Of a stretch of 41,236 bases of DNA, positions 1,414 to 20,461 are shown in pieces. Source of the stretch: Specibacter cremeus (lineage in GTDB: Bacteria > Actinomycetota > Actinomycetes > Actinomycetales > Micrococcaceae); contig NZ_RWKQ01000019.1 of NCBI RefSeq assembly GCF_003946885.1, positions 40,754 through 81,989 on the forward strand, written 5' to 3'. The notes under the pieces are model-generated. The model did no database searches. It was not told the DNA's origin and saw only the letters and a program-made list of their open reading frames with translations. Each line of letters starts with the position of its first letter. The first letter of the stretch is position 1. Position numbers and translations under genes: made by a program.

Positions 1414-1441
1414 TCGCAATTTGAGTCAACGTATGTAGACT
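1414..1441 (+). promoter_or_regulatory. Promoter with overlapping 18-bp operator (site 1)
   Basis: AGTCAACGTATGTAGACT at 1424-1441 is an imperfect inverted repeat (7 of 9 positions symmetric). Its right end forms a -10 box, TAGACT (1436-1441), directed towards the alcohol dehydrogenase operon, with a weak -35 (TCGCAA, 1414-1419) 16 bp upstream. The motif recurs with 16 of 18 identical bases at 20434-20451, again over a TAGACT -10 box with 16-bp spacing. A repressor bound here would block the -10 element. It also lies just upstream of the amidohydrolase, so it may control both directions. The protein that binds it is unknown and no candidate gene lies beside it. Confidence 0.6.
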
Positions 1442-1508
1442 ATCCCACAATGGTGCGGTGGATCACAGCCCGCCCCGCACCGCCTGACCAGTCACCGAGG
1501 AGACGACC

Positions 1509-2633
1509 ATGACGACTTCCCCCCAGACGATTCCCACGAGCACCCGGGCCGCGGTGCTCACGGCCCACGGTGAACCGCTCGAAATCCAGGACTTGCCGCT
1601 GCCGGCGGACATCGAGCCCGGTGCGGCGCTGGTGCGCATCACGCGCACCACGCTGTGCGGCACCGACATCGAGATCTGGTCCGGGAAGATGAGCTTCCCG
1701 GGCATGCTGCCCATGGTCCTGGGGCACGAGATGGTCGGGGAGGTCATCGCCGTGGGCGAGGGCGCCCGTGACGCGTTGGGCCGCGAGATCACCGTGGGCG
1801 CCCGCATCGGCTGGTCCGAGTCGACGTGCGGGAAATGCTTCGGCTGCCGGGTGCTGCGCGAGCCGGTGGCCTGCTCGCGACGCGGCTACGGCTTCATGCA
1901 GCGCTCCGACGTGCCGCCGTACGCCACCGCTGGGCTGGTGGAGACCTGCTACGTGACGCCCAACGCGGAGAAGCTGCTGCTGCCCGAGGGCCTCGACGAC
2001 ACGCTGGCCGCCATGGCCGGCTGCGCCGCGAAGACCGTGCTGCGCGCGTTCGACCGGGCCGGCGGCGTGCGTCCGGGCTCCCGCGTGGTCATCCAGGGCA
2101 GCGGCGCGCTGGGACTGTTCGCGACCGCCGTCGCACGCATCTCCGGAGCCGGCACCGTGATCACCGTCGGCGCACCGGCGGACCGGCTGGCCATGGCGAA
2201 GCGCTTCGGCGCCGACCACGTGGTCGACATCGCCGCCGGCCCCGAGGCGACCATCGCCGCCGTCAACGAACTGACGTCCGGCATGGGCGCGGACCTGATC
2301 CTCGACTTCGCCGGCGCCCCGTCGGTGGGCCCCGAGGCCGTGGCCATGGCCGCCCAGCGCGGCACCTTCGTGGTGGTCGGCTCCACCGGGCCCACGGGCG
2401 AGGCCATCACGCTCGGCGCCGTCATGGGCAAGGAGATGACGATCGTCGGCTCGCTCAACGGCGACATCTCCGACTACTACCGGGCCACCGAGTTCTTCCG
2501 CACGTTCGCGGACCGCATGCCGTGGCAAGACCTGTTCAGCGAGCCGGTGGGCCTGTCCGGGGCGAGCGAATGCATCGCGGACATGTCCCGGCTGGGCCAA
2601 ATCAAGGCCGTCATCGACCCCCGCCTCCCGTAA
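1509..2633 (+). CDS. Zinc-binding alcohol dehydrogenase (MDR family)
   Basis: Medium-chain NAD(P)-dependent, zinc-containing alcohol dehydrogenase of 374 residues, the usual family length. The GroES-like domain carries the catalytic zinc ligands Cys50 (CGTD) and His73-Glu74 (GHE), and a structural-zinc loop with Cys107, Cys110, Cys113 and Cys122. The Rossmann domain has GSGALG near residue 197. A purine-rich GAGGAG site precedes the ATG. It is the first gene of a run of seven same-strand genes with gaps of 0-31 bp or overlaps, so one operon is likely. In that setting it probably oxidises an alcohol released by the downstream esterases; this is inference from context. Confidence 0.9.
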   Translation: MTTSPQTIPTSTRAAVLTAHGEPLEIQDLPLPADIEPGAALVRITRTTLCGTDIEIWSGKMSFPGMLPMVLGHEMVGEVIAVGEGARDALGREITVGARIGWSESTCGKCFGCRVLREPVACSRRGYGFMQRSDVPPYATAGLVETCYVTPNAEKLLLPEGLDDTLAAMAGCAAKTVLRAFDRAGGVRPGSRVVIQGSGALGLFATAVARISGAGTVITVGAPADRLAMAKRFGADHVVDIAAGPEATIAAVNELTSGMGADLILDFAGAPSVGPEAVAMAAQRGTFVVVGSTGPTGEAITLGAVMGKEMTIVGSLNGDISDYYRATEFFRTFADRMPWQDLFSEPVGLSGASECIADMSRLGQIKAVIDPRLP

Positions 2634-2664
2634 CCCGCACACCCGCCTGACCGAAAGGACCCCC

Positions 2665-3642
2665 ATGTCTGCCACGCAGTCCACCACCCTGGTGCCGCGC
2701 CGGGCCATCGGCACCACCGCCATCGAAGCCTCCGTGCTCTCGCTCGGCTCCTGGCACACCTACGACCGCATGGACTTTGAGACCGCGGTGACGATGGTGC
2801 GCACCGCCGTCGACGCGGGCATCAACCTGTTCGACGTCGGCGTCTACGGCTTCCCCGGCATGATGCCGCCGGCCGTCACCGACGTGCTGTTCTCCGCGAT
2901 CATCCGCGCCGCTGGCGTGAAGCGCGAGGAATACCTGCTCTCCGAGAAGCTGTGGCTGGAGGGCTACGGCGACGGCGGCTTCCGGCCCCAGCTCGAGGGC
3001 GCGCTGTTCCGCGTCGGCACCGACTACGCCGACCTGGTGGTGCTCGGGGACCTGCGCCGCGACGACCTTCAGCTGCGCGACCTGGTGCTGGACCTCGCCG
3101 GGCTGCAGAAGTCGGGCATCATCCGGGCGTGGGGCGTGAACAACTGGTCGGCCACGAACATCCAGTCGCTGATCGACATCGCCCGCGAGGAGGGCGTGCC
3201 CGGCCCCGAGATCACGCAGCTGAAGTACAGCCTGTCCCGGCGCTCCATCCCGGACGGCGAGCCATTCGCGAAGCTGTGGGAACAGGGCATCACCATGCAG
3301 TCCTCCGATGTCCTGGAGGGCGGCATCCTGGCCGGAAAGGTCAACCCCGACCGCGAGGTGGGGCGCGACCCGGGCGGCATCCGGGCGAAGATCATCGAGT
3401 CCGTGCCGGCCGTCACCGCACTAGCCGGCGAACTCGACACCACCCCGGCGCAGCTCGCCGTCGCCTTCACCCTCACCCACCCCGCCAACACGACGACGCT
3501 CTTCGGAGCGACCCGCCTCGAGCAGCTCGAACAGAACATCGGTGCGATCGCCCTCGTGGAGCGCGTCGGCGCCGCCCGGCTGCGCGAACTCGTCGCCCCG
3601 TTCTGGGCGGATGCGGGCATCGTCGACCCGGAAGGACCGTAA
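2665..3642 (+). CDS. Aldo/keto reductase family protein, atypical active site
   Basis: Aldo/keto reductase-like TIM-barrel protein of 325 residues, most like the Kv-beta/YghZ-type branch (GINLFDVGVYG, GTDYADL, GVNNWSA). Of the classical Asp-Tyr-Lys-His tetrad, Asp57, Tyr61 and Lys95 are visible. The position that normally reads LYQIH reads LVVLG here, so the catalytic His appears to be Gly128, and the Asp-Tyr spacing is one residue short. It may be a reductase with altered chemistry or a non-catalytic NADP-binding protein. GAAAGGA precedes the ATG. It lies 31 bp after the dehydrogenase and 5 bp before the first esterase. Confidence 0.82.
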   Translation: MSATQSTTLVPRRAIGTTAIEASVLSLGSWHTYDRMDFETAVTMVRTAVDAGINLFDVGVYGFPGMMPPAVTDVLFSAIIRAAGVKREEYLLSEKLWLEGYGDGGFRPQLEGALFRVGTDYADLVVLGDLRRDDLQLRDLVLDLAGLQKSGIIRAWGVNNWSATNIQSLIDIAREEGVPGPEITQLKYSLSRRSIPDGEPFAKLWEQGITMQSSDVLEGGILAGKVNPDREVGRDPGGIRAKIIESVPAVTALAGELDTTPAQLAVAFTLTHPANTTTLFGATRLEQLEQNIGAIALVERVGAARLRELVAPFWADAGIVDPEGP

Positions 3643-3647
3643 CCGCC

Positions 3648-4643
3648 ATGACCGGCACCGATACCGCAATCGCACCCGTCCCCTTCGACCCCGAGCTCGC
3701 CCCCATCCTCGAGGCCATGGCCGCCGCACCGCTGCCCGCCATGACCGCGGAAACGCTGCCGCTGATGCGCGACGGCGCCGCGGACATGTTCCCGTCCGCG
3801 GCGGACGCGATCGGCGACCGCCCGGTCGAGACCGAGGAGCGGCTCATCCCCGGCCCCGCCGGCGCCCCCGACCTCGAGATCACCATCCTTCGCCCGCGCG
3901 GGCACGACGCCTCCGCCACCGTGCCCGGCCTCTACAACATCCACGGCGGCGGCATGATCGTGGGGCACCGCTCCTGGGAGACCGGCCGCCTGGTCGACCT
4001 GGTGCTGGAACTGGGCGTCGTCGTCGTCAACGTCGAATACCGGTTGGCCCCGGAACACCCGTTCCCGGCCGGTGTGGAGGACTGCTACGCCGGGTTCGCC
4101 TGGTTCGCCGCGCACGCCGCGGACCTCGGCGTCGACCCGGAGAAGATCGTGGTCATGGGCGGCAGCGCCGGCGGCGGGTTCTCCGCGGCCGTGGCGTTGC
4201 TGGCTCGCGACCGCCAGGGTCCGGCGATCGCCGGGCAGCTGCTGCTGTGCCCCATGCTCGACAACACCAACACCACGGTGGCCAGCCGGCAATACGACGG
4301 GATCGGCACCTGGCAGCGCGACGCGAACCTGCTGGCCTGGAAGTGCGTGCTCGGCGCCGAGCTGGCCTCCTCGACGGAGGCGTCGCCGTACGCGGCGCCG
4401 AGCCGTGCACAGGACCTCTCCGGCTTGCCGCCGGCGTTCATCGAGGTGGGGGCCGCGGAGATGTTCCGCGACGAAGACGTCGAGTACGCGTCACGCATCT
4501 GGGCCACCGGCGGACAGGCGGAATTGCACGTCTGGAACGGCGGGTTCCACGGCTTCGACATGTACGCCCCGGACACGGAGATCACGCGCGCCGCGCTGAC
4601 GGCCCGCAGCTCGTGGCTACGCCGCGTCCTGGGGATCCGGTGA
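3648..4643 (+). CDS. HSL-family alpha/beta hydrolase (esterase) 1 of 4
   Basis: Serine esterase of the hormone-sensitive-lipase (bacterial family IV) type, 331 residues. The oxyanion-hole motif HGGG is at 99-102, the nucleophile is Ser173 in GGSAGG, and the acid and base are Asp275 (RDED) and His301 (FHGF). The conserved YRLAPEHP follows the HGGG strand. No signal peptide is seen, so it is cytoplasmic. I chose the ATG at 3648 because the longer open frame upstream only shadows the preceding gene. It is the first of four consecutive paralogues that share PFDPEL-like N-termini and GPAGAPD segments, evidently arisen by tandem duplication. The natural ester is unknown. Confidence 0.9.
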   Translation: MTGTDTAIAPVPFDPELAPILEAMAAAPLPAMTAETLPLMRDGAADMFPSAADAIGDRPVETEERLIPGPAGAPDLEITILRPRGHDASATVPGLYNIHGGGMIVGHRSWETGRLVDLVLELGVVVVNVEYRLAPEHPFPAGVEDCYAGFAWFAAHAADLGVDPEKIVVMGGSAGGGFSAAVALLARDRQGPAIAGQLLLCPMLDNTNTTVASRQYDGIGTWQRDANLLAWKCVLGAELASSTEASPYAAPSRAQDLSGLPPAFIEVGAAEMFRDEDVEYASRIWATGGQAELHVWNGGFHGFDMYAPDTEITRAALTARSSWLRRVLGIR

Positions 4644-5596
4644 GGGCCGTCCCCGTCCCCATCGACCCGGAGATCGCGGCGCGGATGGCCGGGCAGCCGG
4701 CCGGCGAGCCGATCACCCGGGAGACCCTCGTGGCGAGCCGGGCCGGCATGGCCGGGTTCTTCCCGCCCGCAGCCGAGGTGATCGGCGCCCGGCCGGTCCG
4801 GGCGGAGGAGCGGCTCATCCCGGGGCCCGCGGGCGAGCTGGAGGTCACCATCATCCGGCCCGCCGAGCCGCGGCCGGACGCCCCGGGCCTGTACAACATG
4901 CACGGCGGCGGCCTCATCATGGGCACCCGCCACATGGACACGGGCCGGATCGTCGACCTGGTCGAGGAGTTCGGCTTCGTTGCCGTCAACGTCGAGTACC
5001 GGCTGGCCCCGGAGCACCCGTACCTGGCACCCATGGACGACTGCTATGCGGGGCTGGACTGGATGGCCGGGCATGCCGGCGAGCTCGGCTTCGACGCCGG
5101 GCGGCTGTTCACGATCGGCGGCAGCGCCGGCGGGCTGCTCAGCGCCTCGATGGCGCTGCAGGCCCGCGACAACGGCGGCCCGGCCATCGCCGGCCAGGTG
5201 CTGCTGGTGCCCATGCTCGACTACCGCAACACCTCCGTCTCCACCCACCAGTACCCCACCGACGGGCCCTGGAGCCGGCACATCGACGTGCTCTCCTGGG
5301 ACTGCGTGCTCGGGGACCTGGTCACGGGCGACGACGTCTCGCCGTACGTGGCCCCGGCCAACGCGGCCGACCTGTCCGGCCTGCCGCCGGCCTACATCGA
5401 ACTCGGCTCCGCCGAGACGCTCCGCGACGAGGCGCTCGCCTACGCCACCCGCATCTGGGCGGCCGGCGGCGAGGCCGAACTGCACATCTGGTCCGGCGGC
5501 ACGCACGGCTTCGAGATGTTCCACCCGGACACCCGGCTCGCCCACGACGCCCTGGCCGCCCGCTCGAGCTGGTTTCGCCGCATGCTGGCCCGCTGA
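4640..5596 (+). CDS. HSL-family alpha/beta hydrolase (esterase) 2 of 4
   Basis: Second tandem esterase, 318 residues. The GTG start at 4640 overlaps the TGA of the previous gene (GTGA), implying translational coupling. Oxyanion motif HGGG at 88-91, nucleophile Ser162 in GGSAGG, Asp263 (LRDE) and His289 (THGF) complete the triad. The N-terminal cap region differs most from its neighbours: it is shorter, with an Ala/Gly-rich stretch, and residues 24-40 replace the helix seen in copies 3 and 4. This hints at a different acyl or alcohol preference. Cytoplasmic, with no signal peptide. Confidence 0.89.
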   Translation: MRAVPVPIDPEIAARMAGQPAGEPITRETLVASRAGMAGFFPPAAEVIGARPVRAEERLIPGPAGELEVTIIRPAEPRPDAPGLYNMHGGGLIMGTRHMDTGRIVDLVEEFGFVAVNVEYRLAPEHPYLAPMDDCYAGLDWMAGHAGELGFDAGRLFTIGGSAGGLLSASMALQARDNGGPAIAGQVLLVPMLDYRNTSVSTHQYPTDGPWSRHIDVLSWDCVLGDLVTGDDVSPYVAPANAADLSGLPPAYIELGSAETLRDEALAYATRIWAAGGEAELHIWSGGTHGFEMFHPDTRLAHDALAARSSWFRRMLAR

Positions 5597-5621
5597 AACC
5601 TCCCACCGAATCGAGGACCCC

Positions 5622-6587
5622 ATGACCACCGTCCCCTTCGACCCCGAGCTGCTCGCGGGCCTGGCCTTCTTCCAGCGGGAGATCGAGGGCACCCCGCTGC
5701 GCACTGGGAACATCCACGCCAGCCGCGCCCGCTTCGCCGCCCTGACCGCCCCCATCGAGGCGGTCGTCGGCGACGCGCCCGTCGCCTTCGAGCACGTCTC
5801 GGTGCCTGGGCCCGCGGGCGCGCCCGACGTCGCGCTGACCGTCATCCGCCCGGCGGCCGGCACGAGCGGCGCCGCGGGCGTCTACAATATCCACGGCGGC
5901 GGGACGGTTCTGGGCAACCGTTTCTTCGGCGTCGGCGAACTCATCGACCTCGTCGTGCGCCACGGCGTCGTCGCCGTCACGGTCGAGTACCGGCTCGCCC
6001 CGGAGGATCCGTACCCGGCCGGCGTCGAGGACTGCTACGCCGGGCTGGTCTGGATGGCCGGGCACGCCGCGGAGCTCGGCATCGACCCCGCACGCATCGT
6101 CGTGCAGGGCGCGAGCGCCGGCGGCCTGTTGAGCGCGGCCGTGTCGCTGCTCGCCCGCGACCGCTCGGGTCCCGCGATCGCGGGGCAGATCCTGGTGAGC
6201 CCGATGCTCGACGACCGGAACGACGCCCCATCGACGCACCAGTTCGACGACGTCGGCGTGTGGGACCGCGGCGCCAACCACGCGGGCTGGACCGCCTACC
6301 TCGGCGACGCCCGGGGGTCGGCGGATGTCCCGGCCTACGCGGCGCCCGCGCGGGCCACCGACCTTTCCGGCCTGCCGCCCGCGTTCATCGAGTTGGGCGC
6401 CTGCGAGGCCCTGCGCGACGAGGACATCTCCTACGCGAGCCGCATCTGGGCGGCCGGCGGCCAGGCCGAGCTGCACATCTGGCAGGGCGCCTTCCACGGT
6501 TCCAACGGGATCGCCCCCGGCGCGGAGGTCTCCCGGGCCACCGACGCCGCCCGGCTCAGCTGGATGCGCCGCATCCTCGCCCTCTGA
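5622..6587 (+). CDS. HSL-family alpha/beta hydrolase (esterase) 3 of 4
   Basis: Third tandem esterase, 321 residues. HGGG at 91-94, Ser165 in GASAGG (Gly replaced by Ala before the nucleophile, still GxSxG), Asp266 in LRDED and His292 in FHGS. The residue after the catalytic His-Gly is Ser rather than Phe as in the other three copies. Its cap region (LAFFQREIEGTPLR) is closely related to that of copy 4 and unlike copies 1 and 2, so the array probably formed by at least two duplication steps. A 25-bp gap separates it from copy 2. Confidence 0.89.
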   Translation: MTTVPFDPELLAGLAFFQREIEGTPLRTGNIHASRARFAALTAPIEAVVGDAPVAFEHVSVPGPAGAPDVALTVIRPAAGTSGAAGVYNIHGGGTVLGNRFFGVGELIDLVVRHGVVAVTVEYRLAPEDPYPAGVEDCYAGLVWMAGHAAELGIDPARIVVQGASAGGLLSAAVSLLARDRSGPAIAGQILVSPMLDDRNDAPSTHQFDDVGVWDRGANHAGWTAYLGDARGSADVPAYAAPARATDLSGLPPAFIELGACEALRDEDISYASRIWAAGGQAELHIWQGAFHGSNGIAPGAEVSRATDAARLSWMRRILAL

Positions 6588-6606
6588 CCCCAGCGAAAGG
6601 ACAGTC

Positions 6607-7578
6607 ATGACCCCTGTGCCGGTTCCGTACGATCCCGAGCTCGAGGAGGGGCTCGCGTTCTTCCTGGACCTGGTCGAGCGGATCCCGTTGCGCGAGCACA
6701 CGATCCTGGAGAACCGGGCGCACTTCGCCACGATCATCCAGCCGATCGAGGAGCAGGTCGGCGACCTCCCGCTCGACTGGGAGAACAGGGTCATCCCCGG
6801 CCCGGCCGGCGCCCCCGATGTGGAGATCACGATCATCCGGCCGAAGGGCGCCGTGTCCGGCGCCGGCGTGCTGGGCATCCACGGCGGCGGCATGGTGCTG
6901 GGCACCCGCTTCTTCGCCACCGGCGAGCTGATCGACCTGGCGCTGCGCCACGGCGTCGTCGGTGTGGCCGTCGAATACCGGCTGGCGCCGGAGCATCCGG
7001 GCACCGCCGCCGCCGAGGACTGCTACGCCGGGCTGGTCTGGTTCGCCGGGCACGCCGCCGAGCTGGGCGTCGACCCGGGGCGCATCATCGTCTCGGGTGC
7101 GAGCGCGGGCGGCGGCCTGTCCGCGGCCGTGGCACTCATGGCCCGCGACCGCAAGGGACCGAAGCTGGCCGGCCAGCTGCTGAACTGCCCGATGATCGAC
7201 GACCGCAACGACACCGTCTCCTCTTACCAGTACGACGGCATCGGCGCCTGGGACCGCAACAACAACGACACCGGCTGGAGCGCGCTGCTTGGCGTGACCC
7301 GGTTCACGGATGCCGTGTCGGCGTACTCGGCGCCGTCCCGCGCCACCGACCTGTCGAACCTGCCGCCGGCCTACATCGAGGTCGGAAGCGCCGAGGTGTT
7401 CCGCGACGAGGACGTGGACTACGCGACCCGCATCTGGGCGACTGGAGGCCAGGCCGAATTGCACGTGTGGTCCGGCGCCTACCACGGCTTCTCCGGATTC
7501 TCCCCGGACGCGGTCGTCTCGCAGGCCGCCAACGCGGCCCGCGACAGCTGGATCCGGCGCACCCTTGGCCTTAGGTGA
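6607..7578 (+). CDS. HSL-family alpha/beta hydrolase (esterase) 4 of 4
   Basis: Fourth tandem esterase, 323 residues, preceded by GAAAGGA. HGGG at 92-95, Ser166 in GASAGGG, Asp268 in FRDED and His293 in YHGF. The cap segment LAFFLDLVERIPLREH matches copy 3. The PYDPEL start and C-terminal SWIRRTLGLR match the pattern of the other copies. It is separated from copy 3 by 19 bp, and its TGA lies at the likely start of the exporter gene. Cytoplasmic serine hydrolase; substrate unknown. Confidence 0.89.
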   Translation: MTPVPVPYDPELEEGLAFFLDLVERIPLREHTILENRAHFATIIQPIEEQVGDLPLDWENRVIPGPAGAPDVEITIIRPKGAVSGAGVLGIHGGGMVLGTRFFATGELIDLALRHGVVGVAVEYRLAPEHPGTAAAEDCYAGLVWFAGHAAELGVDPGRIIVSGASAGGGLSAAVALMARDRKGPKLAGQLLNCPMIDDRNDTVSSYQYDGIGAWDRNNNDTGWSALLGVTRFTDAVSAYSAPSRATDLSNLPPAYIEVGSAEVFRDEDVDYATRIWATGGQAELHVWSGAYHGFSGFSPDAVVSQAANAARDSWIRRTLGLR

Positions 7579-7618
7579 GCACACTGGAGCTCGCCGCACC
7601 GGGACCCTCCGGCGCACC

Positions 7619-8779
7619 GTGCTGCTGCTCGGTGCGCTGGAGGCGTTCGGGCCGCTGTCGATGGACCTGTACATGCCGTCGCTGCCGCACCTGGCCGCCT
7701 CGCTGCACACCACGGACACGCTCGCCCAGGCGACCATGTCGGTGTGCATGATCGGTCTCGGCGTCGGCCAGCTGGTCGCCGGCCCGCTCAGCGACCGGTA
7801 TGGACGACGGCGGCCCCTCCTGATCGGGGTCGGCCTGTTTGCGCTGTTCTCACTGGCCTGCGTGTTCGCACCGAACATCGAGGTGCTGCTGGCCGTGCGG
7901 TTCCTGCAGGGACTGGCCGGGTCCGCCGGCGTCGTCATCACCCTGGCGATCGCCCGCGACCTGTTCAGCGGCGTCGAATTGTCCAAGATGCTCTCGCTGC
8001 TGGCGCTGGTCAGCGCCTCGGCGCCCATCTTGGCCCCGATCGCCGGCGGCCAGCTGGCCCGGGCCATGGACTGGCGCGGCATCTTCGGCGTGCTGGCCGG
8101 GATCGGCGCGCTGTTGTTCGTGCTGGCCGCGACCCTGCTGCGCGAGAGCCACCCGCACGGGCAGCGCACCGCGGCCGGGTTCCATGGCACGGCCCGCCAA
8201 TTCCGGGAGCTGGCCCGGGACCGGCTGTTCGTGGTGCTGCTGGTGACGTCCGCCGCCAGCGGGGTCGGGTTCTTCACGTACCTGTCGATGTCCAGCTTCG
8301 TCATGCAGAACCAGTTCGGTTTCACGCCGCAGCTGTTCAGCCTGGTGTTCGCGCTCAACGCGCTGGCCAACATGGGCGGGTCCCAGGTCAGCCGTGCGCT
8401 GGTGGGCCGTCTCGGGCCGCTGCGCACCTACCTGGCCGGGTACGGGGCCACCGTGCTCGTGGTGTTGGCCATGCTGGCGGCCGCCCTGCTCTCGGCGCCG
8501 CCTCTGGTGTTCCTATTGTGCCTGGCGGCCTACTTGGCCGCCGGGTCGATCAGCGGGCCGAACACGACCACGCTGGCCATGAACGGGCATGGTGAACGGG
8601 CCGGGACGGCGGCCGCTATGTTCGGCATGGCCATGTTCGTGGTGGGTCCCATCGTGTCTCCGCTCGCCGCGTTGGGCGGGGCGACGGCGGCAACCATGGC
8701 GTTGACCATCGCCGGCGCCGTGCTCGTGGCCGGCGCGCTGGCGTTCACGATCGTCCGCCGCCGCGCCCGCCACGCATGA
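7619..8779 (+). CDS. Bcr/CflA-type MFS transporter, start uncertain
   Basis: Major facilitator of the DHA1 Bcr/CflA drug:proton antiporter type with 12 predicted membrane segments. The first is GALEAFGPLSMDLYMPSLP, followed by the motif A loop GPLSDRYGRRRPL and FLQGLAGSAG. The start is unclear. The only in-frame start after the previous stop that keeps segment 1 is a GTG at 7619, giving 386 residues with almost no N-terminal tail and no good ribosome site. A GTG at 7575 overlaps the previous TGA exactly as in esterase 2 and would begin MSTLELAAPG, but in another frame, so a one-base indel between 7575 and 7619 (real or sequencing error) is plausible. As last gene of the operon it could export a product or a toxic intermediate. 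Confidence 0.82.
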   Translation: MLLLGALEAFGPLSMDLYMPSLPHLAASLHTTDTLAQATMSVCMIGLGVGQLVAGPLSDRYGRRRPLLIGVGLFALFSLACVFAPNIEVLLAVRFLQGLAGSAGVVITLAIARDLFSGVELSKMLSLLALVSASAPILAPIAGGQLARAMDWRGIFGVLAGIGALLFVLAATLLRESHPHGQRTAAGFHGTARQFRELARDRLFVVLLVTSAASGVGFFTYLSMSSFVMQNQFGFTPQLFSLVFALNALANMGGSQVSRALVGRLGPLRTYLAGYGATVLVVLAMLAAALLSAPPLVFLLCLAAYLAAGSISGPNTTTLAMNGHGERAGTAAAMFGMAMFVVGPIVSPLAALGGATAATMALTIAGAVLVAGALAFTIVRRRARHA

Positions 8780-11811: not shown

Positions 11812-11821
11812 TGTTCCCGTG

Positions 11822-12571: not shown

Positions 12572-13495
12572 TCAGTCCGCGCTCCGGCGGACCTGGTTCG
12601 CCTCGCGGATGACCGCCCACGCGTCGGCGACCGGGCCCACGTGGCCGAGCTTGTCGGGGTTGATCACCGTGCGGATCGCCTGGATGCGCCCGCCGAGTAT
12701 GTCGAGCGTCCAGGTGTTGAGAACCTTGCCGTCCCGGTCGCGGAAGATCGCCCCGGGCTGGCCGTTCACCTCGTGCGGCTCCACCGTCCCCCCGATCCGG
12801 GCGAACCAGGGCAGCGCGGAGGCCAGCACCCGGGCCACGTTCTGGGCGCCGAAGATGCCCCGGCCCCACTGGGGTGCCTTGCCGCCGCTGTCCGCGACCA
12901 GCTGCACGTCGGCGGCAAGCAGTTCCCGCAGGCCCTCGACGTCGCCTTCCCGCAGCGCGTCGAAGAAGCGCCCCGCCAGCGCATTGCGCTCCCTGCGGTC
13001 CGCTGCGAACCGCGGGCGTCCTTCGTCCATGTGGCGGCGCGCCCGCACCGCGAGTTGGCGGCACGCCGCCTCCGAGCGGCCCACCGCGGAGGCGATCTCG
13101 GGGAAACCGAAGCCGAACACCTCGCGCAGCACGAAGACCGCCCGCTCGAGCGGGCTCAGCCGCTCGAGCAGCAGCAGGGCCGCCATCGAGACCGAGTCGG
13201 CCAGTTCCGCCGCGCGGGCGGGATCGCTGTACGGATCGCTGACCAGTGGCTCGGGGAACCACTGACCCACGTACGTCTCCCGCCGGACTCTGGCCGAGCG
13301 CAGCACGTCGATGGAGATCCGGGTGACGGCGGCCGAGAGAAAGGCCTTGGTCGAGGTGGGAAGGGTCGGGGAGCCGTCATAGCGCAACCAGGTCTCCTGG
13401 ACGGCGTCCTCGGCATCGCCCACGCTGCCCAGGATTCGGTAGGAGATCGCGAACAGCAGCGGCCGCAGCGCCTCGAACTCTTCGACCCGGCTCAC
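12572..13495 (-). CDS. sigJ: ECF41-family RNA polymerase sigma factor (SigJ-like)
   Basis: Extracytoplasmic-function sigma factor of group ECF41, 307 residues. Sigma2 spans about 5-70 (DAEDAVQETWLR) and sigma4 about 105-160. A C-terminal SnoaL-like extension follows (about 170-307), which in this group replaces an anti-sigma factor by modulating activity in cis. The group's signature motifs are present: WFPEP at 79-83 (usual WLPEP), DSGGK at 202-206 (usual DGGGK) and NPDKL at 279-283. The GTG start at 13495 overlaps the TGA of the upstream epimerase gene. ECF41 genes are known to sit beside COE genes (carboxymuconolactone decarboxylase, oxidoreductase or epimerase), which fits here. Confidence 0.92.
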   Translation of the reverse strand: MSRVEEFEALRPLLFAISYRILGSVGDAEDAVQETWLRYDGSPTLPTSTKAFLSAAVTRISIDVLRSARVRRETYVGQWFPEPLVSDPYSDPARAAELADSVSMAALLLLERLSPLERAVFVLREVFGFGFPEIASAVGRSEAACRQLAVRARRHMDEGRPRFAADRRERNALAGRFFDALREGDVEGLRELLAADVQLVADSGGKAPQWGRGIFGAQNVARVLASALPWFARIGGTVEPHEVNGQPGAIFRDRDGKVLNTWTLDILGGRIQAIRTVINPDKLGHVGPVADAWAVIREANQVRRSAD

Positions 13496-14414
13496 GCCAG
13501 CTCTTCCTTGAAGCCCTGGCGCCACGAGGGGTAGCGCAGCTCCCAGCCGAGTTCGCGCTTCGCCTTGGCATTGGAAAAGCCGCGACCCTCGGTCATCATC
13601 ATCACGGCCATGTCCCCGGCCAGCAGCCGGGCCAGCCAGGCGGGGACCCGCATGGGCCGCTTCGCACCCGCACACTCAGCCAGGTACGGCAGCCATACGC
13701 CGGCAGGGGCCGGCTCGTCGTCGACCACGTTGAACACTCCCCGGGCGTGCTGTTCCACGGCCAGCACCGTGGCGCCGGCCGCGTCGTCGAGATGCACCCA
13801 CGAGTTGTAGCCGGTGCCGCCGCCGACCAGCGGGTACTGCCGCTTGCGCACCAGCGTGACCTGGTCGTCGATGGCCCCAGGTCCATACAATGCCCCGTAC
13901 CGCAGGACGGCCCCGCCGGCGGTGACCACCACGTCCTCCAGGTGGTGCAGCGCGTCCGACAGCGCGGCCGCGAGGTCCGGGTTCAGCGGGTCCTCCTCGG
14001 TGTTGACCCAGGGGCCCGTGCGGACGGCGTTGAAGGCGCCGAAGCCCTGGGCCACCAGGTGGGACACCCCGGCGGCCTCGGCGGCGGCGAGCAGGTGGTC
14101 CGTCCCCTCGGTGCGCAGCCGGTTGGTGACTGCGAAGAACCTGTCGGGATGCCTCAAATCCGGCTTGCCGGCGTGCGCCGCGGACAGCCCCGTCATCTGG
14201 TGCACGATCACATCCGGCCGGGCCGTGGCCACCGCCTCGCCGACCGACGCCGCATCCAGGCCGTCCATCACCACTGCCTCGGCGCCCAGCTGCTCCAGCA
14301 ATCCCACCGTGCCCGGATCCGTCGTCGTCCCCGTCACCTGGTGGCCCCTCGCCACGAGCTGCGGCACCAGCCGCCGCCCACAACCCCCGTCCCGCCTGCC
14401 ACGAACACCCGCAT
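13492..14414 (-). pseudogene. ECF41-associated NAD-dependent epimerase (COE), apparent frameshift
   Basis: NAD(P)-binding epimerase/dehydratase of about 307 residues, the COE partner of the sigma factor. The start is MRVFVAGGTGVVG (ATG 14414, AAGG 8 nt upstream). The continuation RRLVPQLVARGH..VIVHQMTGLS..SWVHLDDAAGATV..GVFNVVDDEP, ending KEELA, lies in a different frame. The switch is at about 14370-14380, in GGGCGGCGGCTGG, where one base is missing relative to the expected GVVGRRLVPQL. The break falls inside the Rossmann glycine loop. Either the gene is inactive or the base was lost in sequencing. Its stop overlaps the sigJ start (GTGA). Confidence 0.8.
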
Positions 14415-14457
14415 GGCCATCACCTTCCTGATTCCAGAGCCTTTCTCCTGAACCCAA

Positions 14458-14484
14458 GACGAGACAGCCCGGCCGTCTGTGACA
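14458..14484 (-). promoter_or_regulatory. Predicted ECF41-dependent promoter of the COE-sigJ pair
   Basis: Reading the minus strand, TGTCACA (complement of 14478-14484), 16 bp of spacer and CGTC (complement of 14458-14461) match the published ECF41 target promoter (TGTCACA at -35, CGTC at -10). It lies about 45 bp upstream of the epimerase start, giving a leader of roughly 35-40 nt. The sigma factor probably drives its own operon through it. Confidence 0.75.
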
Positions 14485-14559
14485 TGGCAGCGACGTGAGC
14501 ACAACCCGGAATCCGCCACGTGGTTCCCCTCGCGGCGTCCCGGTGATAGCCTCGCCACC

Positions 14560-15018
14560 ATGCCGCTGGGTTGGAAGCTTGTCATCGATGCCGCCAACGC
14601 GCCAAGCCTCGCGGATTTCTGGGCCGCCGTACTCGGCTACGACGTCGAGGATCCCTCACCGCTTATCGACCGTTTGCTGTCAGCGGGGCAACTGCCTGAA
14701 ACGGCGGTCGCGGAGCACGACGGCCACCATATCTTCCGCGGTTTTTCCGCCATACGCCACCCGGATGACCCCTTCGACCCGGTAAGCGGCGTGGGCCAGG
14801 GCCGGCGCTTGCTGTTTCAAGACGTGCCAGAACCCAAGACCGTCAAGAATCGCCTGCATGTCGATGTGCATGCTCCGCCGGGCACCCTGGATGATCACGT
14901 TGTGCGTCTGGAGGCCCTTGGTGCCCAACGCGTTGCAGAGTTTGACAAGGGACCGGCCGGACACTGGTGGGTGATGCGGGATCCCGAGGGAAACGAGTTC
15001 TGCATCGCTCAGGCGTAA
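14560..15018 (+). CDS. VOC (glyoxalase-like) family protein
   Basis: Protein of 152 residues with the paired beta-alpha-beta-beta-beta modules of the vicinal oxygen chelate superfamily, nearest the Glyoxalase_6 type: WKLVIDAANAPSLADFWAAVLGYDVED at the start, NRLHVDVHAPPG for the second module, and the closing VMRDPEGNEFCIAQA. The reaction is unknown; many such actinobacterial proteins are uncharacterised. I prefer the ATG at 14560 because TAGCCT lies 7 nt before it, the spacing of a leaderless -10 box; the longer frame from 14479 adds non-conserved residues. Convergent with the ABC operon. Confidence 0.82.
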   Translation: MPLGWKLVIDAANAPSLADFWAAVLGYDVEDPSPLIDRLLSAGQLPETAVAEHDGHHIFRGFSAIRHPDDPFDPVSGVGQGRRLLFQDVPEPKTVKNRLHVDVHAPPGTLDDHVVRLEALGAQRVAEFDKGPAGHWWVMRDPEGNEFCIAQA

Positions 15019-15074
15019 CCCGACGCACCCGCACAAGGTGACATCCCGCCGTCGTGCCTGAAAACCAAAACCAG

Positions 15075-15122
15075 GGCGCACTTGCGCACGAAAACCGGCG
15101 GATTTCCGTGCGCAAGTGCGCC
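15075..15122. terminator. Perfect 16-bp-arm hairpin between convergent genes
   Basis: GGCGCACTTGCGCACG (15075-15090) and its exact reverse complement (15107-15122) enclose a 16-nt AT-richer loop. It lies between the VOC gene and the end of the ABC operon, so it can serve both as a terminator, although no long T-run follows. Confidence 0.7.
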
Positions 15123-15143
15123 GCAGTTGAGCGGGGTAGAGAC

Positions 15144-15977
15144 TCAGGCGGCCGAATCGGCCCGCAGTTCCAGCCACTTGGCGCGGCGTTCGGCCTGGGC
15201 CTGCGGGTTCGCGATGGGGGAGGCCATCAGCAGCCGGCGCGTGTACGGGTCCTGCGGGTTGGCGGTCACGGAATCGCCGCGGCCCGTCTCCACGATGTCG
15301 CCGCGGTACATGACGGCCACGCGGTGGCAGACGCGGCGGACCACGCCCAGGTCGTGCGTGACGAACAGGTAGGAGACGCCCGTGTCGCGCTGAAGCTCGA
15401 TGAACAGGTCCAGGATGGCGGCCTGCGTGGTCAGGTCCAGGGCGCTGACCGGCTCGTCGCAGACGATCAGCCGCGGCTTGCGGACCAGGGCCCGGGCGAT
15501 CGCGATGCGCTGGCGCTGGCCGCCGGAGAACTCGTGCGGGAACCGCCCCACCACGGTGGACGGCAGCTTGACCCGGTCGATCATCTCCTTCACGGCGGCG
15601 TCCGCGGCCCGGCGGCCCAACCCGGACGTGGTCAGCGGCTCGGCCAGGATGTCCCCGACCGACATGGACGGGTCCAGCGAGCCGTACGGGTCCTGGAACA
15701 CCACCTGGATGCTGGCGGCCAGCTTGCGGCGGGCCGCCCGCGTCAAGTGAGTGATGTCCGCGCCGTCGAACGTGATCTGGCCGCCGGCGACCGGGACCAG
15801 GCCCAAGATCGCCTTGCCCAGCGTGGACTTGCCCGAACCGGATTCGCCCACCAGCCCCACGCATTCGCCGGCCCCGATGTCCAGCGACACCTCGTTCAGG
15901 GCACGGAACGTCTTGCGGCGCCCGGGCAGCGGGTAGTCGATGGCCAGGTCCTGCACGCTCAACAGCGGGGTGCTCAT
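15144..15977 (-). CDS. Oligopeptide-type ABC transporter ATP-binding protein (OppF/DppF-like)
   Basis: ATPase subunit of 277 residues for a family-5 (oligopeptide/dipeptide/nickel-type) importer. Walker A is GESGSGKST, the Q-loop lies in VVFQDPYGSLDP, the signature is FSGGQRQRIAIARAL, Walker B is LIVCDEPVSALD and the switch His is in FVTHDLG. The C-terminal NPQDPYTRRLL is typical of Opp/Dpp ATPases. Its ATG overlaps the stop of the permease-ATPase fusion (ATGA). Last gene of the operon. Confidence 0.93.
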   Translation of the reverse strand: MSTPLLSVQDLAIDYPLPGRRKTFRALNEVSLDIGAGECVGLVGESGSGKSTLGKAILGLVPVAGGQITFDGADITHLTRAARRKLAASIQVVFQDPYGSLDPSMSVGDILAEPLTTSGLGRRAADAAVKEMIDRVKLPSTVVGRFPHEFSGGQRQRIAIARALVRKPRLIVCDEPVSALDLTTQAAILDLFIELQRDTGVSYLFVTHDLGVVRRVCHRVAVMYRGDIVETGRGDSVTANPQDPYTRRLLMASPIANPQAQAERRAKWLELRADSAA

Positions 15978-17767
15978 GCGTTGACCGCCTTTCGTTCGGT
16001 GGTGTCATACGCGGCGTCGAGTTCGGTGCGGCTGGCCGCGTCGTCGAGCGAGGCGGCGATCAGTTCGCGCGTGTAGTCGTTCGCCGGGTTCGTGAAGATC
16101 GTGGCAACATCCCCGACCTCCACGATCTCCCCGTGCTTCATGACGGCGACCCGGTCGCAGATGTCCGCCACGACGCCGAAGTTGTGCGTCACGATGACCA
16201 GCGCCATGCCGTATTCCTGCTGCAGTTCGCGCAGCAGCTCCAGCACCTCCGCCTGGACGGTGACGTCCAGCGCCGTCGTCGGCTCATCGGCGATCAGCAC
16301 CGACGGGTGGCCCGAGATGGCGCCGGCGATCAACACGCGTTGGGCCATGCCGCCGGAGAGCTGGTGCGGGTAGGAGCGCATCACGCGGGCCGGGTCATGG
16401 ATGCCCACCCGGGTCAGCACGCCGATGGCACGTTCGCGCGCCTCGGTCCGGCCAAGCTTGTGCACGCTGCGCAGCGGCTCAATCAGCTGGTAGCCGATGG
16501 TGTACGACGGGTCCAGGTTCGTCATGGGCTCCTGCGGCACGTAGCCGAGCTTGCTGCCGAGCAGCTTGTGCCGGTCCTTGCGGTCCAGGGCGCTGACGTC
16601 CCGTCCGCCGATCCACAGCGCGTCGCAGCTCGCTACCCCGGCGGCCGGGAGCAGGTCCAGGATGGAAAACACGGTCTGCGACTTGCCGGAGCCGGATTCG
16701 CCCACGATGCCGAGCACCTCTCCGGGGGCCACATCCAGGTCGATGCCGTGCACCACCTCGATGTCGGCGTCGGCGCCGGGGTAGCTGACCTTCAGGTTGC
16801 GCACCTGCACGGCCGCCGCGGCGGGTTCGTAGTGCAGCGCGCCGGTGGTTGCGTCGTCAACGGACGACGGCGCGGCGGGGCGCCTTTTGCGCCGCGGCGC
16901 CGGCTGGCGGACGCTGAGCACGTCGCTGAGCGTGGACCCCATGACGGCCAGCGCCGCGATCGTGATGCCCAGGGCGAGCGAGGGCCACAGCAGCAGCAGC
17001 GGGTCGGTGAGGATGGCGGTGAAGCCGTCGTTCATCATGGCGCCCCAGCCCGGGGTGTTGGCGCTGCCGATGCCCAGGAATTGCAGGCCCGCCTGCATGC
17101 CCATGGCCATCCCGGCGGTCAGTGCGGTCTGGATGATGATGGGCGCGTACACGGCCTTGATCACGTGCTTGGCCAGGATGCGGGTGTTCGAGAGGCCGGA
17201 GACGATGGCCGCGTCGATGTAGGCCTCGTTGCGGACCGTCAGGGTGGTGGAGCGGGTCAGACGGAAGTAGCCGGGCATCAGGAACACGCCCACCGTGATC
17301 ATGATGAACGTGAAGCTGTTCCGCGAGGCGGCGGCGACGATCAGCAGGATGATCATGCCCGGCACGGCCTGCAGCGCGTCGCTGACCCAGGTGGCGATCT
17401 TGTCGAAGACGCCGCCGAAGTAGCCGGCCGCCAGGCCCGACGGGACGCCGATGCCGACGGCAACTGCGATGGCGATCGCGGCGCCGATGAGGGTGGTCCG
17501 GGCGCCGAACAGCAGCCGGCTGAGGATGTCCCGGCCGGTGCTGTCGCCGCCGAGCGGGTGGGCGGCGCTGGGCGGGGCCTTGAAGAGGGACAGGTCCACG
17601 AAGTTCGGGTCGTGCGGGGCCAGCAGCGGGGCGAAGACGGCCACCAGGACCACGACGGCGAAAACACCCAAGGAGATGGCGCCGGCGGGGCGGCGGAGGA
17701 AACGGCCCAACACGGAACCGCGGCGGGCCGCCCTCGGGTCGATGTTGTCGGTCAGGGGGGCGGTCAT
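15974..17767 (-). CDS. Fused ABC permease-ATPase (DppC-DppD-like)
   Basis: A 597-residue protein joining two usually separate subunits. Residues about 1-295 form a DppC-type permease: an N-terminal signal-anchor helix [42 protein letters not shown], and an EAA-like loop [22 protein letters not shown]. After a basic linker ([11 protein letters not shown]), about 320-597 is a DppD ATPase with Walker [10 protein letters not shown], signature [14 protein letters not shown] and Walker [13 protein letters not shown]. The fusion places the ATPase on the cytoplasmic side, as required. It overlaps its neighbours by ATGA at both ends. Confidence 0.92.
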
Positions 17768-18705
17768 TGCACACGCGCTTTCGGGTTGAGCCAGCCGAGG
17801 ACGACGTCGAGAACGAAGTTGACGATCACGACGAACAGGACGGAGACGACGGTGATGCCCAGCAGGATCGGGATGTCCCCGTTCTGGGAAGAGCCGTTGG
17901 TCATGGCGCCGATGCCGGGAAGCGCGAACACCTGCTCAACGACCACGGCGCCGCTGAGCAGTCCCACGAACATGAGGGCCAGCACGGTCAGCGAGGCGGG
18001 TGCGGCGTTGCGCAGCAGGTGCAGGACCACGCGGGTCTGGGTGAGTCCGCGGCTGCGCAGCGTGCGCACGAAGTCCTGGCCGTTCACGGCGATGAACGCG
18101 TTGCGCAGCTGCTCGGCCACCATGACGATGGCGCCGAGGGCCAGCGCCACGGCCGGCAGGGTGATGGAACGCAGCCAGCCCTGCACGGACATGGTGGGCT
18201 GGACGTAGCCGACGGCCGGGAACCACTTGAGGTTCACGGCGAACCAGACGACCAGCACCAGCGAGACCCAGAAGCCGGGGAGGGCGAACAGCACGACGGC
18301 GGCGCCCTTGACCAGCTTGTCGATCCAGGTGCCCGGATTCAGGCCGGCCAGGATCCCGAAAAGGCCGCCGAACACGGCGGACAGGATGATGGCGAACGTG
18401 ACGACGGACAGCGTGACGGGCAACTTGAGGCTGATCTGGCCGGACACGGGCTGGAAGTTGCGCCACGAGGTGCCGAAGTCGCCGGTGATGGCGTGGCCGC
18501 CCCAGTCGAGGAACTGCGTGAGCAGCGGCCGGTCGGTGCCGATCTTGTGGGCCAGCGCGGCCTGCTGGGCGGGCGTGGCTGAGCTGCCCAGCAACCCGAC
18601 GGTCGGGTCGCCGATGGCCAGGTGGGCGAGGAAGAAGGTCGCCGTGCCGACCACCAGCAGCAGGATGATGCCGGAGATGAGTCGTTTGAGTGTGAACCTG
18701 AGCAT
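17764..18705 (-). CDS. Oligopeptide-type ABC permease (DppB-like)
   Basis: Permease of 313 residues, family-5 type, with about six membrane helices. It opens with MLRFTLKRLISGIILLLVVGTATFFLAHLA, and has the typical GDFGTSWRNFQPVSGQI periplasmic segment and the EAA loop GQDFVRTLRSRGLTQTRVVLHLLRNA. Two ATGs, 6 bp apart, can start it. I chose the one at 18705 because AAGGA lies 7 nt upstream, against only 1-2 nt for the ATG at 18711. Its stop overlaps the start of the fused subunit. Confidence 0.92.
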   Translation of the reverse strand: MLRFTLKRLISGIILLLVVGTATFFLAHLAIGDPTVGLLGSSATPAQQAALAHKIGTDRPLLTQFLDWGGHAITGDFGTSWRNFQPVSGQISLKLPVTLSVVTFAIILSAVFGGLFGILAGLNPGTWIDKLVKGAAVVLFALPGFWVSLVLVVWFAVNLKWFPAVGYVQPTMSVQGWLRSITLPAVALALGAIVMVAEQLRNAFIAVNGQDFVRTLRSRGLTQTRVVLHLLRNAAPASLTVLALMFVGLLSGAVVVEQVFALPGIGAMTNGSSQNGDIPILLGITVVSVLFVVIVNFVLDVVLGWLNPKARVQ

Positions 18706-18725
18706 GTCCATATCCTTGCAGGGTT

Positions 18726-18759
18726 GGCGGCGGGCGGGCCGGGTGGCCCGCCCGCCGCC
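18726..18759. repeat. Intercistronic GC hairpin after substrate-binding protein gene
   Basis: GGCGGCGGGCGGGCC and its exact complement form a 15-bp stem with a 4-nt loop (GGGT) in the 60-bp gap between the lipoprotein gene and the permease. Such hairpins commonly protect the 3' end of the upstream message and lower downstream expression, matching the need for excess binding protein. No T-run follows, so full termination is unlikely. Confidence 0.75.
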
Positions 18760-18765
18760 GGCCGG

Positions 18766-20289
18766 CTAGCCTTTGAAGCTGATCTGGCGAAGCGTCGGGA
18801 ACATCATGCCGGTCACGGGCGTGACCGTGATGTTCGAGGCGGAGACGTAGACGTTGTCGGCCTGGTACCAGACCGAGAACCACGCCTTTTCGGTGACGAG
18901 CGTATTCAGCTTCTCGATCTCGGCGGGCTGGGCGTCCGGGGTCGCCGCGAGCACCTTCGAGACTTGGGCCTGCACGTCCGGGAACTTGTCCATCTGCGGG
19001 TTCGGGTTGAACCACTGCGGGGTGGAAATCTGCCGCGTCACGGTGGCCACCGGGTTGGAGTCCATCGCAAGGAACGAGACGAACATCGGGTACGTGGGGG
19101 CCTTGGCCTGATAGTCCATGTACTGCATATTGTCCCACTTGACCTTGATGCCCAGCTGGCCGAACGTCTGGTCGACGGAGGGCTGCCACACCTGGAACAC
19201 CTGCGTCATCGGCATGGTGACGCTGAAGCCGCCCGGGTAGCCGGCCTCGGCCAGCAGCGACTTGGCCTTGGCCAGGTTGAACGCGTACTTGTCGTTCAGG
19301 CCAGGCAGGTTGCCGGGCATGCCGGCCGGGAACACCTGGTTGGTGGCCGCGCCCAGGCCGTTGCCGATTGCCTTGAGGATCTGCGCGCCGTCGAACGCGT
19401 AGTTCAGCGCCTGGCGCACCTTCACCTCGCCCAGCGGCTTGAACTTCTCGCCGGCCTGGTCGGTGAAGCGCAGGCCCACCCAGCCGGAGACCTTCTTGGC
19501 CACATTCCAGCCCTGCTGCGTGGCCTGGTCCATGGCGGCCTTGTCGGCGTAGTTGACGTTGATCTGGCCGGAGAGCATGGCGTTGTCGCGGGCCGTTTGG
19601 TCCTGGATCGGGAAGATGGCCAGCGGGTCGCCCTTGAACGCCGCCGCGTCCCAGTGGTCCTTGACCTTCGTGAAGTGGTACTCGGAGCCGGCCACACTGG
19701 AGGAGTCCAGCGTGTACGGGCCGGAGCCGACAGGGGTCTTGGCGAGGGTTCCGGCGTCGATCGCCTTCGGCGCCATCATGTAGCTGCGGCCCAGGCCCAT
19801 GAAGTACAGCAGCGTGTCGTCACGCTCCTTCAGGTTGATCTCAATCGTGTCGGCGTCGACCTTCTTGAAACCGGCCACCTTGAGGTAGGCCTCCTGGGAA
19901 CGGGCGCCCTTCTTCAGGTATTCGAGGCTCTTCACGGCGGCGTCGGCGTTGAAGGGTTCCCCGTCACTGAACTTGGCGTCCGTGCGCAGGTCCATGGTCA
20001 CCGTCTTGAAGTCGGCGGAGACCTTCCAATCCTTGGCCAGGGCCGGGACCGGCTTGCCGTCGCCGTCGACGGCGACCAGCGGGTCGTAGACGGCCGACAG
20101 GTACGGCCCGTCGAAGCCGATGTCGGCCAGGGATGGGTCCCAGGAGGTGACGTCGGCGAAATTGCCGATGTTCAGTGCCGTGTTGCCGGCGCCCGAATTG
20201 CCCCCGCCGACGTTGCCGCCGCCCCCCGAACAGGCGGACAACGCGAGTGCCGTAGCGGCCACAAGGGCCAGGGCCGATGCTCTTTTCAT
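18766..20289 (-). CDS. Family-5 ABC substrate-binding lipoprotein
   Basis: Extracellular solute-binding protein of 507 residues. The lipoprotein signal MKRASALALVAATALALSAC ends in a lipobox with Cys at residue 20, followed by a Gly/Asn-rich tether. Family-5 landmarks include TSWDPSLADI, KDWKVSADFKTVTMDLR and DAKFSDGEPFNADAAVKSLEYL. It delivers substrate to the DppB / DppC-D / DppF-like subunits downstream. Family 5 binds peptides, but also nickel, opines, glycosides and other compounds, so the ligand is open. A longer frame to 20412 is a shadow: it has no signal sequence at its start. The promoter upstream shares an operator with the esterase operon. Confidence 0.93.
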   Translation of the reverse strand: MKRASALALVAATALALSACSGGGGNVGGGNSGAGNTALNIGNFADVTSWDPSLADIGFDGPYLSAVYDPLVAVDGDGKPVPALAKDWKVSADFKTVTMDLRTDAKFSDGEPFNADAAVKSLEYLKKGARSQEAYLKVAGFKKVDADTIEINLKERDDTLLYFMGLGRSYMMAPKAIDAGTLAKTPVGSGPYTLDSSSVAGSEYHFTKVKDHWDAAAFKGDPLAIFPIQDQTARDNAMLSGQINVNYADKAAMDQATQQGWNVAKKVSGWVGLRFTDQAGEKFKPLGEVKVRQALNYAFDGAQILKAIGNGLGAATNQVFPAGMPGNLPGLNDKYAFNLAKAKSLLAEAGYPGGFSVTMPMTQVFQVWQPSVDQTFGQLGIKVKWDNMQYMDYQAKAPTYPMFVSFLAMDSNPVATVTRQISTPQWFNPNPQMDKFPDVQAQVSKVLAATPDAQPAEIEKLNTLVTEKAWFSVWYQADNVYVSASNITVTPVTGMMFPTLRQISFKG

Positions 20290-20433
20290 GTTTTCTTCTC
20301 TCGATTGCCAGGGTGGGTTGGCGCGCACAGGCCACAGGTCCCGTATGAGCGTAAGCGGTGATGGATTCGCTTCGAACGTGGCGACCCGTGACCCATGCGT
20401 GCCCAAGATCACAAACGACGTGTCGTGGCGGTA

Positions 20434-20461
20434 AGTCTACAGGCGTTGACTAGAAATGCAA
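20434..20461 (-). promoter_or_regulatory. Promoter with overlapping 18-bp operator (site 2)
   Basis: On the minus strand TTGCAT (complement of 20456-20461) and TAGACT (complement of 20434-20439), 16 bp apart, form a promoter for the ABC operon, with a leader of about 140 nt. AGTCAACGCCTGTAGACT occupies 20434-20451 on that strand. It matches site 1 (1424-1441) at 16 of 18 positions, differing only in the two central bases, and has the same position relative to the -10 box. Confidence 0.65.

Follow-up and report, generated by a model that had tools for sequence, protein, structure and literature searches.

A candidate TetR-family repressor and its 18-bp operators in a predicted ester/amide uptake and breakdown cluster of Specibacter cremeus

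Among the described regulatory systems, the closest to the one considered here are local repressors of the BetI type, i.e., TetR-family proteins that combine a TetR_N domain (PF00440) with a BetI-type C-terminal domain (PF13977); BetI itself is a choline-sensing repressor, a role that is also reflected in the name of the respective model. The subject of this analysis is a stretch of 41,236 nucleotides from Specibacter cremeus (hereafter the window; positions 40754-81989 of contig C11 in genome G000, 4.31 Mb in 98 contigs) that carries two look-alike 18-bp sites, one at the promoter of a presumed operon that starts with a zinc alcohol dehydrogenase (ADH) gene and includes four esterase genes, and the other upstream of an ABC importer operon (Table 1). 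A TetR-family gene lies next to this region, and the system resembles the BetI-type repressors in the domains and size of the regulator, the palindromic operators in promoters and the location of the regulator gene beside its putative targets, but these targets form an ester/importer cluster and are not choline-betaine genes. The comparisons described below make it very probable that a local TetR repressor, acting on the 18-mer operators, controls the uptake and breakdown genes of this cluster, which would thereby turn on together.

An earlier note on this stretch reported the two 18-mers, and a search of the window sequence finds both as exact matches, AGTCAACGTATGTAGACT (operator 1) and AGTCAACGCCTGTAGACT (operator 2). 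These are the only matches in the window at up to three mismatches, and at least two such matches occur in only one of 100 dinucleotide shuffles. A scan of the complete genome with the pattern given in that note, AGTCAACGNNTGTAGACT, yields the two exact copies and one copy that differs at a single base and lies at C11:37968-37985, which is 2.8 kb upstream of the window; all other hits have three mismatches. Because this additional copy is nearly perfectly symmetric, the symmetrised dyad AGTCTACRNNYGTAGACT was adopted, and it reveals a fourth place, C11:39802-39819, with two mismatches. Many copies at unrelated positions had been named as the outcome that would speak against a shared operator; at up to two mismatches, AGTCTACRNNYGTAGACT occurs in the 4.31 Mb at just four places (C11:37968, 39802, 42177, which is operator 1, and 61187, which is operator 2), all of them within 23.2 kb and each ahead of gene starts. 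Four further places, with three mismatches each, follow on other contigs, and a reversed control pattern gives five places in the genome at up to three mismatches. When the chance expectation is computed from base composition alone (window G+C and genome length), the dyad is observed three times against 0.028 expected at up to one mismatch, four times against 0.78 at up to two and eight times against 13 at up to three, so that only the top four places stand out. The two operators just upstream of the window lie in the gap between an O-methyltransferase (OMT) and an alpha/beta hydrolase (ABH) gene and in the gap between a second aldo/keto reductase gene (AKR2) and a short-chain dehydrogenase (SDR) gene. 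A looser pattern, GTCTACRNNYGTAGAC, searched with up to one mismatch, is found at four places in the S. cremeus genome versus none for its reversed control. A search of 57 further genomes from the genus, family and order finds this pattern at 21 places in 15 genomes versus 55 places for the control; it is thus no commoner than the latter.

The proposal that the right half of each site doubles as the -10 box of the promoter is well supported by conservation. Where the site ahead of ADH is kept outside S. cremeus (27 loci), the right arm reads TAGAAT in 24, TAGACT in two and TAGATT in one, TAGAAT being closer to TATAAT than TAGACT is; in the AKR2/SDR promoters, the right arm is TATAAT in 25 of the 26 listed. 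The accompanying claim of a -35 element 16 bp upstream is weak: the importer promoter has TTGCAT at this distance and the ADH promoter TCGCAA, in a stretch that is poorly kept across genera.

The candidate regulator is encoded by an intact TetR-family gene at C11:36248-36841 (L006:11249-11842), just upstream of the window, which is convergent to the OMT gene and ends 1.1 kb from the C11:37968 site. The protein matches PF00440 with 45.4 bits (cut-off 24) and PF13977 in its C-terminal part, and the closest solved sequence is PDB 2nx4, a TetR family regulator, with an E-value of 7e-35 over nearly the whole protein. Identity with BetI proper was rejected on the basis of the NCBIfam BetI models, for which the scores are 56.2 bits versus a cut-off of 118 and 53.4 bits versus 201.3. 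A regulator of the GntR, LacI or IclR type had been suggested; a TetR-family protein is the most likely candidate instead. Among 30 scanned proteins, a subset of the open reading frames of the contig, the possible regulators are this TetR, a LuxR-type protein, a sigma factor and proteins of the DeoR, HTH_3 and ROK types.

A scan of the genome collection with four TetR orthologues identified 96 relatives, and the analysis used the best 80 of these, which come mostly from Microbacteriaceae (Leucobacter, Leifsonia, Agromyces), Pseudonocardiaceae (Amycolatopsis, Actinokineospora, Saccharothrix), Streptosporangiaceae and Jiangellaceae. In these 80 loci, the 18-mer with up to two mismatches occurs at 63 places, compared with 0, 0, 0, 0, 0, 0, 1 and 0 for eight scrambled dyads. 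All 63 places are outside the matched cluster genes, and most of them are at orthologous promoters, namely OMT/importer (15), OMT/ABH (15), AKR2/SDR (12) and AKR2/amidohydrolase (9). Four loci with a TetR that is 25-28% identical (L145, L147, L148, L149) were separated off to serve as negatives, leaving 76 related loci, in which L086, L098, L100 and L107, being the same contigs as G576, G106, G128 and G083, are counted once. In 11 Agromyces and Leifsonia loci with very similar clusters (L070-L079 and L084), the outer bases of the sites differ and just the inner part is retained; the core was therefore defined as TCTAC-N4-GTAGA. With up to one mismatch, this core is found at 258 sites in 72 of the 76 loci, and at none in the four loci set aside; only two of the 258 sites are inside a matched gene. 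The best of 29 scrambled dyads gives 63 sites, with a median of 6.5 for all 30 dyads. This best control, ATCTC-N4-GAGAT (63 sites in 45 loci), has 37 of its 63 sites inside matched genes and looks codon-driven. The loci that lack the core are three short contigs (L110, L142, L144) and one of full length (L126). Of the 31 loci with an ADH more than 55% identical, S. cremeus included, 28 have the variant of the window, TCAAC-N4-GTAGA, ahead of this gene (the S. cremeus site, L006 in the collection, is counted once, and L159, where ADH begins at the locus edge, is excluded). As to the three exceptions, the ADH gene directly follows importer genes in two (L080, L089) and comes after the SDR gene in the third (L114).

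The presence of the operator is also associated with one particular DNA-binding helix. The stretch AGFANGALK of the DNA-binding motif, which corresponds to the recognition helix of TetR proteins, is invariant in all 79 of 79 TetR orthologues, and the patterns used for the scan did not contain it. The comparison was extended to 28 distant TetR relatives (30-38% identical), comprising 26 further matches to which a locus could be assigned and two S. cremeus paralogues encoded beside amine oxidase genes. The core (up to one mismatch) precedes the matched TetR start by 76-93 bp in all 21 relatives with the helix GFANGA[LM]K, in 18 of them in the form TCTAT-N4-GTAGA, and in none of the seven with other helices. 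This grouping pools GFANGAMK with GFANGALK after the result was known; the split made by the script, by exact GFANGALK, gives 20 of 20 versus 1 of 8, the one being GFANGAMK (Fisher p of 7e-6, to be taken only as a guide given that the proteins are related). The residue after the helix is P in the 21 relatives and H, R or L in the orthologues. This association, like the location and rarity of the sites and their conservation together with this TetR, is a direct result of the computation.

The close relatives of the cluster show how far the sites follow the genes. In an Arthrobacter sp. metagenome-assembled genome from another genus of the same family (G106), a single stretch has the same gene order as in S. 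cremeus, namely TetR, OMT, ABH, AKR2, SDR, amidohydrolase, ADH, AKR1, two esterases, MFS and importer, and the dyad is present at five places, ahead of TetR, OMT/ABH, AKR2/SDR, amidohydrolase/ADH and OppA. In Arthrobacter luteolus (L086), sites are located ahead of OppA, amidohydrolase/ADH, AKR2 and OMT/SDR despite gene rearrangement, and the importer genes directly follow the TetR gene, with AGTCAACAACTGTAGACT in between. Thus, loss of the motif upstream of both orthologous operons, raised in the earlier note as a possible refutation, is not what is seen: in G106 and A. luteolus, the motif is kept ahead of the ADH/esterase operon as well as the importer operon. Two Galactobacter genomes have the dyad ahead of TetR, OMT and amidohydrolase/ADH (G128) or ahead of TetR (G083). 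Since the MFS and importer genes adjoin in A. luteolus, and since in two genomes of another family that were found via OppA rather than TetR (G228 and G254) the TetR gene is on the same strand within an Opp-TetR-ABH-OMT arrangement, the esterase operon and the importer operon appear to form a single module. The separation of about 19 kb that was described for the two sites is accordingly in part a matter of intervening genes, which in the window encode a flavoprotein, a LuxR-type protein, a sigma factor and a NAD-binding protein, the exporter and importer being neighbours in A. luteolus. The proposed regulon of two operons is supported and is larger than stated, at least four operator-bearing intergenic regions being involved.

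A mechanism compatible with these observations can be outlined. A TetR dimer would read the inverted repeat TCTAC-N4-GTAGA with the helix GFANGALK; the left arm of the repeat is TCAAC in the ADH promoter and in that of the importer. The bound protein would keep RNA polymerase from starting by covering the -10 box together with part of the spacer; a repressor role fits the data because the operator covers the -10 box, where a dyad-bound protein would block the polymerase. A single operator per intergenic region could control divergent genes, and the regulon would then consist of OMT/ABH, AKR2/SDR, amidohydrolase/ADH-AKR1-EstA-EstB-EstC-EstD-MFS and the OppA-OppB-OppC/ATPase-ATPase importer. Either the imported compound or a product of its breakdown would probably serve as the inducer and free the repressor at all four promoter regions, resulting in joint uptake and breakdown. 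Binding, repression and the inducer are the inferred parts of this scheme.

Several observations weigh against this interpretation. The promoter of the cluster TetR itself has no clear site in this genome (the best core match has four mismatches), so that autoregulation is unsupported; the core with up to one mismatch is found within 300 bp upstream of TetR in 40 of the 76 related loci, and the other 36 have at least two mismatches there. In the 11 Agromyces and Leifsonia loci, there is no 18-mer at up to two mismatches. G228 and G254 each have one site with three mismatches, ahead of OppA, and the stretches read contain no further site with three or fewer mismatches, AKR2/SDR of G228 included; OppA-like genes (56-58% identical) in four Leucobacter loci have no site (seven mismatches). 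The helix rule is not strict either: a relative in G025, which was found via the motif and is therefore not a fair draw, has GYANGALKP with an exact core 130 bp upstream, and L038, with GYANGALKR, has no core. In addition, the compared loci and proteins are related by descent, and their counts are not independent trials.

The absence of a clear site at the cluster TetR promoter bears also on the possibility that the same kind of TetR is at work but the acting copy is mainly the paralogue on contig C38, or that both act with cross-talk. The recognition residues of the C38 protein, AGFANGALKPYF, are nearly those of the cluster TetR, such that it could bind too, which likewise counts against an exclusive role of the latter. 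The dyad TCTATGATTGTAGA is located at L164:3435-3448, between the C38 TetR gene and a copper amine oxidase open reading frame (start 3378, minus strand), and this paralogue is among the 21 GFANGA[LM]K relatives with the core. However, the C38 protein is just 33-34% identical overall and is encoded on a separate contig, the dyad accompanies the C11 TetR orthologues in 72 of 76 loci, and the C38-type relatives are set apart from the orthologues by the residue that follows the helix and by the fifth left-arm base (18 of the 21 have TCTAT); we therefore assign a low probability to this alternative. It is extremely improbable that another regulator of the window reads the 18-mers. The genes for the LuxR-type protein (10007-11620) and the sigma factor (12572-13675) do sit between the two operons, but neither has a match listed in the 80 loci (E-value up to 1e-15, best non-overlapping matches), and the dyad persists in loci without such matches; both were rejected as the regulator on these grounds. 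The flavoprotein and NAD-binding protein located between the operons also have no match listed in the 80 loci.

Any promoter can be expected to match these sites partially, given that the right arm is itself the -10 box. That the likeness of the 18-mers is merely a by-product of similar promoters, or of chance, is nevertheless hardly credible because conservation extends to the left arm and the 4-base spacing, the sites are rare in the genome and number 258 compared with at most 63 for the 29 scrambled dyads, and they are associated with the helix; chance as the origin of the 18-mers is rejected on the basis of the window shuffles, the genome rarity and the scrambled-dyad controls. The final alternative, that the TetR activates its targets or that the cluster mainly serves the biosynthesis of a product, could appeal to the OMT, reductases and MFS exporter in the regulon. 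It is nevertheless improbable: an operator over the -10 box fits repression, and an Opp-type importer with its binding protein, the esterases, the amidohydrolases and the neighbouring copper amine oxidases fit uptake and breakdown better. Thus, local repression by the cluster TetR remains the preferred explanation.

The features of the proposed regulon within the window are listed in Table 1. Gene calls are open reading frames scored by composition and complemented by family matches; the starts of EstB, the MFS transporter and the amidohydrolase were judged by eye.

Table 1. Operators, promoter elements and genes of the proposed regulon within the window
Feature	Positions	Strand	Basis or remark
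Operator 1, AGTCAACGTATGTAGACT, core TCAAC-N4-GTAGA	1424..1441	+	in the gap that separates the divergent genes for amidohydrolase and ADH
Operator 2, AGTCAACGCCTGTAGACT	20434..20451	-	145 bp upstream of OppA, first gene of the importer
-10 element TAGACT of ADH operon	1436..1441	+	inside operator 1; sequence and conservation
Weak -35-like TCGCAA, 16-bp spacer	1414..1419	+	sequence alone; conserved poorly across genera
-10 element TAGACT of importer operon	20434..20439	-	inside operator 2; sequence
-35-like TTGCAT, 16-bp spacer	20456..20461	-	sequence
Amidohydrolase (Amidohydro_3)	7..1392	-	PF07969, 6e-52; GTG start at 1392, deduced from an upstream AGGAG
Zinc alcohol dehydrogenase (ADH)	1509..2633	+	family match
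Aldo/keto reductase AKR1	2665..3642	+	family match
HSL-type esterase EstA	3648..4643	+	family match
HSL-type esterase EstB	4640..5596	+	family match; start uncertain
HSL-type esterase EstC	5622..6587	+	family match
HSL-type esterase EstD	6607..7578	+	family match
MFS transporter	7619..8779	+	family match; start uncertain; last gene of presumed ADH operon
Second ABC ATPase of importer	15144..15977	-	family match
OppC-type permease fused to ABC ATPase, one protein	15974..17767	-	family match
OppB-type permease	17764..18711	-	family match
OppA-type solute-binding protein (SBP_bac_5)	18766..20289	-	family match

The four esterases form a tandem (3648-7578) with 52-63% mutual identity, and all four contain the Abhydrolase_3 domain with the HGGG and GxSAG motifs. 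These features are shared with the HSL esterases, e.g., heroin esterase (PDB 1lzk), which EstA matches with 183 bits; 7wol is a better match at 230 bits, and EstA reaches the cut-off of none of the NCBIfam models listed for it. Each of G106, A. luteolus and G228 shows two esterases, an EstA-like and an EstD-like one. The importer was described as complete and oligopeptide-type, and indeed a binding protein of the SBP_bac_5 family, two BPD_transp_1 permeases and two ABC ATPase domains are all present, as in the oligopeptide/opine/nickel-type ABC importers (SBP_bac_5, OppBC); unlike in those systems, one permease is fused to an ATPase here, and the binding protein scores below every NCBIfam cut-off listed.

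Taken together, the enzyme families point to ester, amide, alcohol and carbonyl chemistry, so that, as far as family membership can tell, an ester or amide compound is a plausible substrate; its import and degradation, suggested already in the earlier note, we infer from these families. The PDB and NCBIfam neighbours of the ADH, OMT, amidohydrolase, SDR, AKR2, esterase and binding protein are distant or unspecific and identify no compound; a search with the SDR at an E-value of 1e-40 gave no match. Ephedrine breakdown and N-substituted formamide deformylase may be related systems. Among the 76 related loci, the neighbouring genes include those for copper amine oxidase (34 loci), MoaF-like protein (32), a second amidohydrolase (44) and a phosphotriesterase-like protein (16). 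Because copper amine oxidase genes adjoin both the TetR and the paralogous TetR genes, a compound that yields an amine is suggested; this is a weak lead, rather unlikely to hold. Copper amine oxidase, MoaF-like protein, a second amidohydrolase and a branched-chain-type importer recur beside the TetR gene in several families (L070, L115, L137, L159 and others).

A broader interpretation, which is tentative and on balance somewhat doubtful, is that the cluster TetR belongs to a large actinobacterial family of BetI-like TetR proteins with one helix (GFANGALK and close variants), one operator (TCTA[C/T]-N4-GTAGA) and two branches. One branch would be encoded beside copper amine oxidase genes, and the other would run an undescribed pathway, consisting of the importer, esterases, amidohydrolases, reductases and O-methyltransferase, for the uptake and breakdown of an amine-yielding ester or amide; the operators might even be shared, coupling amine oxidation to ester uptake. 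Starting from two similar 18-mers, the analysis arrives at a defined regulon for which a candidate regulator, a core operator and a target list across several actinobacterial families can be named. The operator-helix pair permits target prediction for related TetR proteins from sequence, and inducer screening offers a direct route to the compound used by this recurrent cluster.

The module is rare. ADH orthologues (E-value up to 1e-110) are found in four of 395 family genomes and in none of the other genus genomes examined, and OppA orthologues (E-value up to 1e-130) in three of 396 order genomes; this draw missed G106 and A. luteolus, both of which are carriers. The rare and patchy occurrence in the genomes drawn suggests horizontal transfer of the module. 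No description of the operator or the cluster was found in the titles and abstract openings of the open-licence literature, where absence proves little.

A few additional observations concern the surroundings of the cluster and the related loci. In the genome G035, which lacks a matched cluster TetR, two dyad-like places are located 26 bp apart (G035:C16:16016-16057). In L134:12525-17100 (Leucobacter coleopterorum), the matches to AKR2, the amidohydrolase and ADH are all split in two, which looks like an interruption of the reading frames. Within the window, the sigma factor, which has a weak SnoaL-like C-terminal match, adjoins a NAD-binding epimerase-like protein (12572-14502), and the two may form an ECF41-like pair. 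Further downstream (24248-27454), the window encodes a metallo-beta-lactamase-fold protein followed by a sulfatase-family protein.

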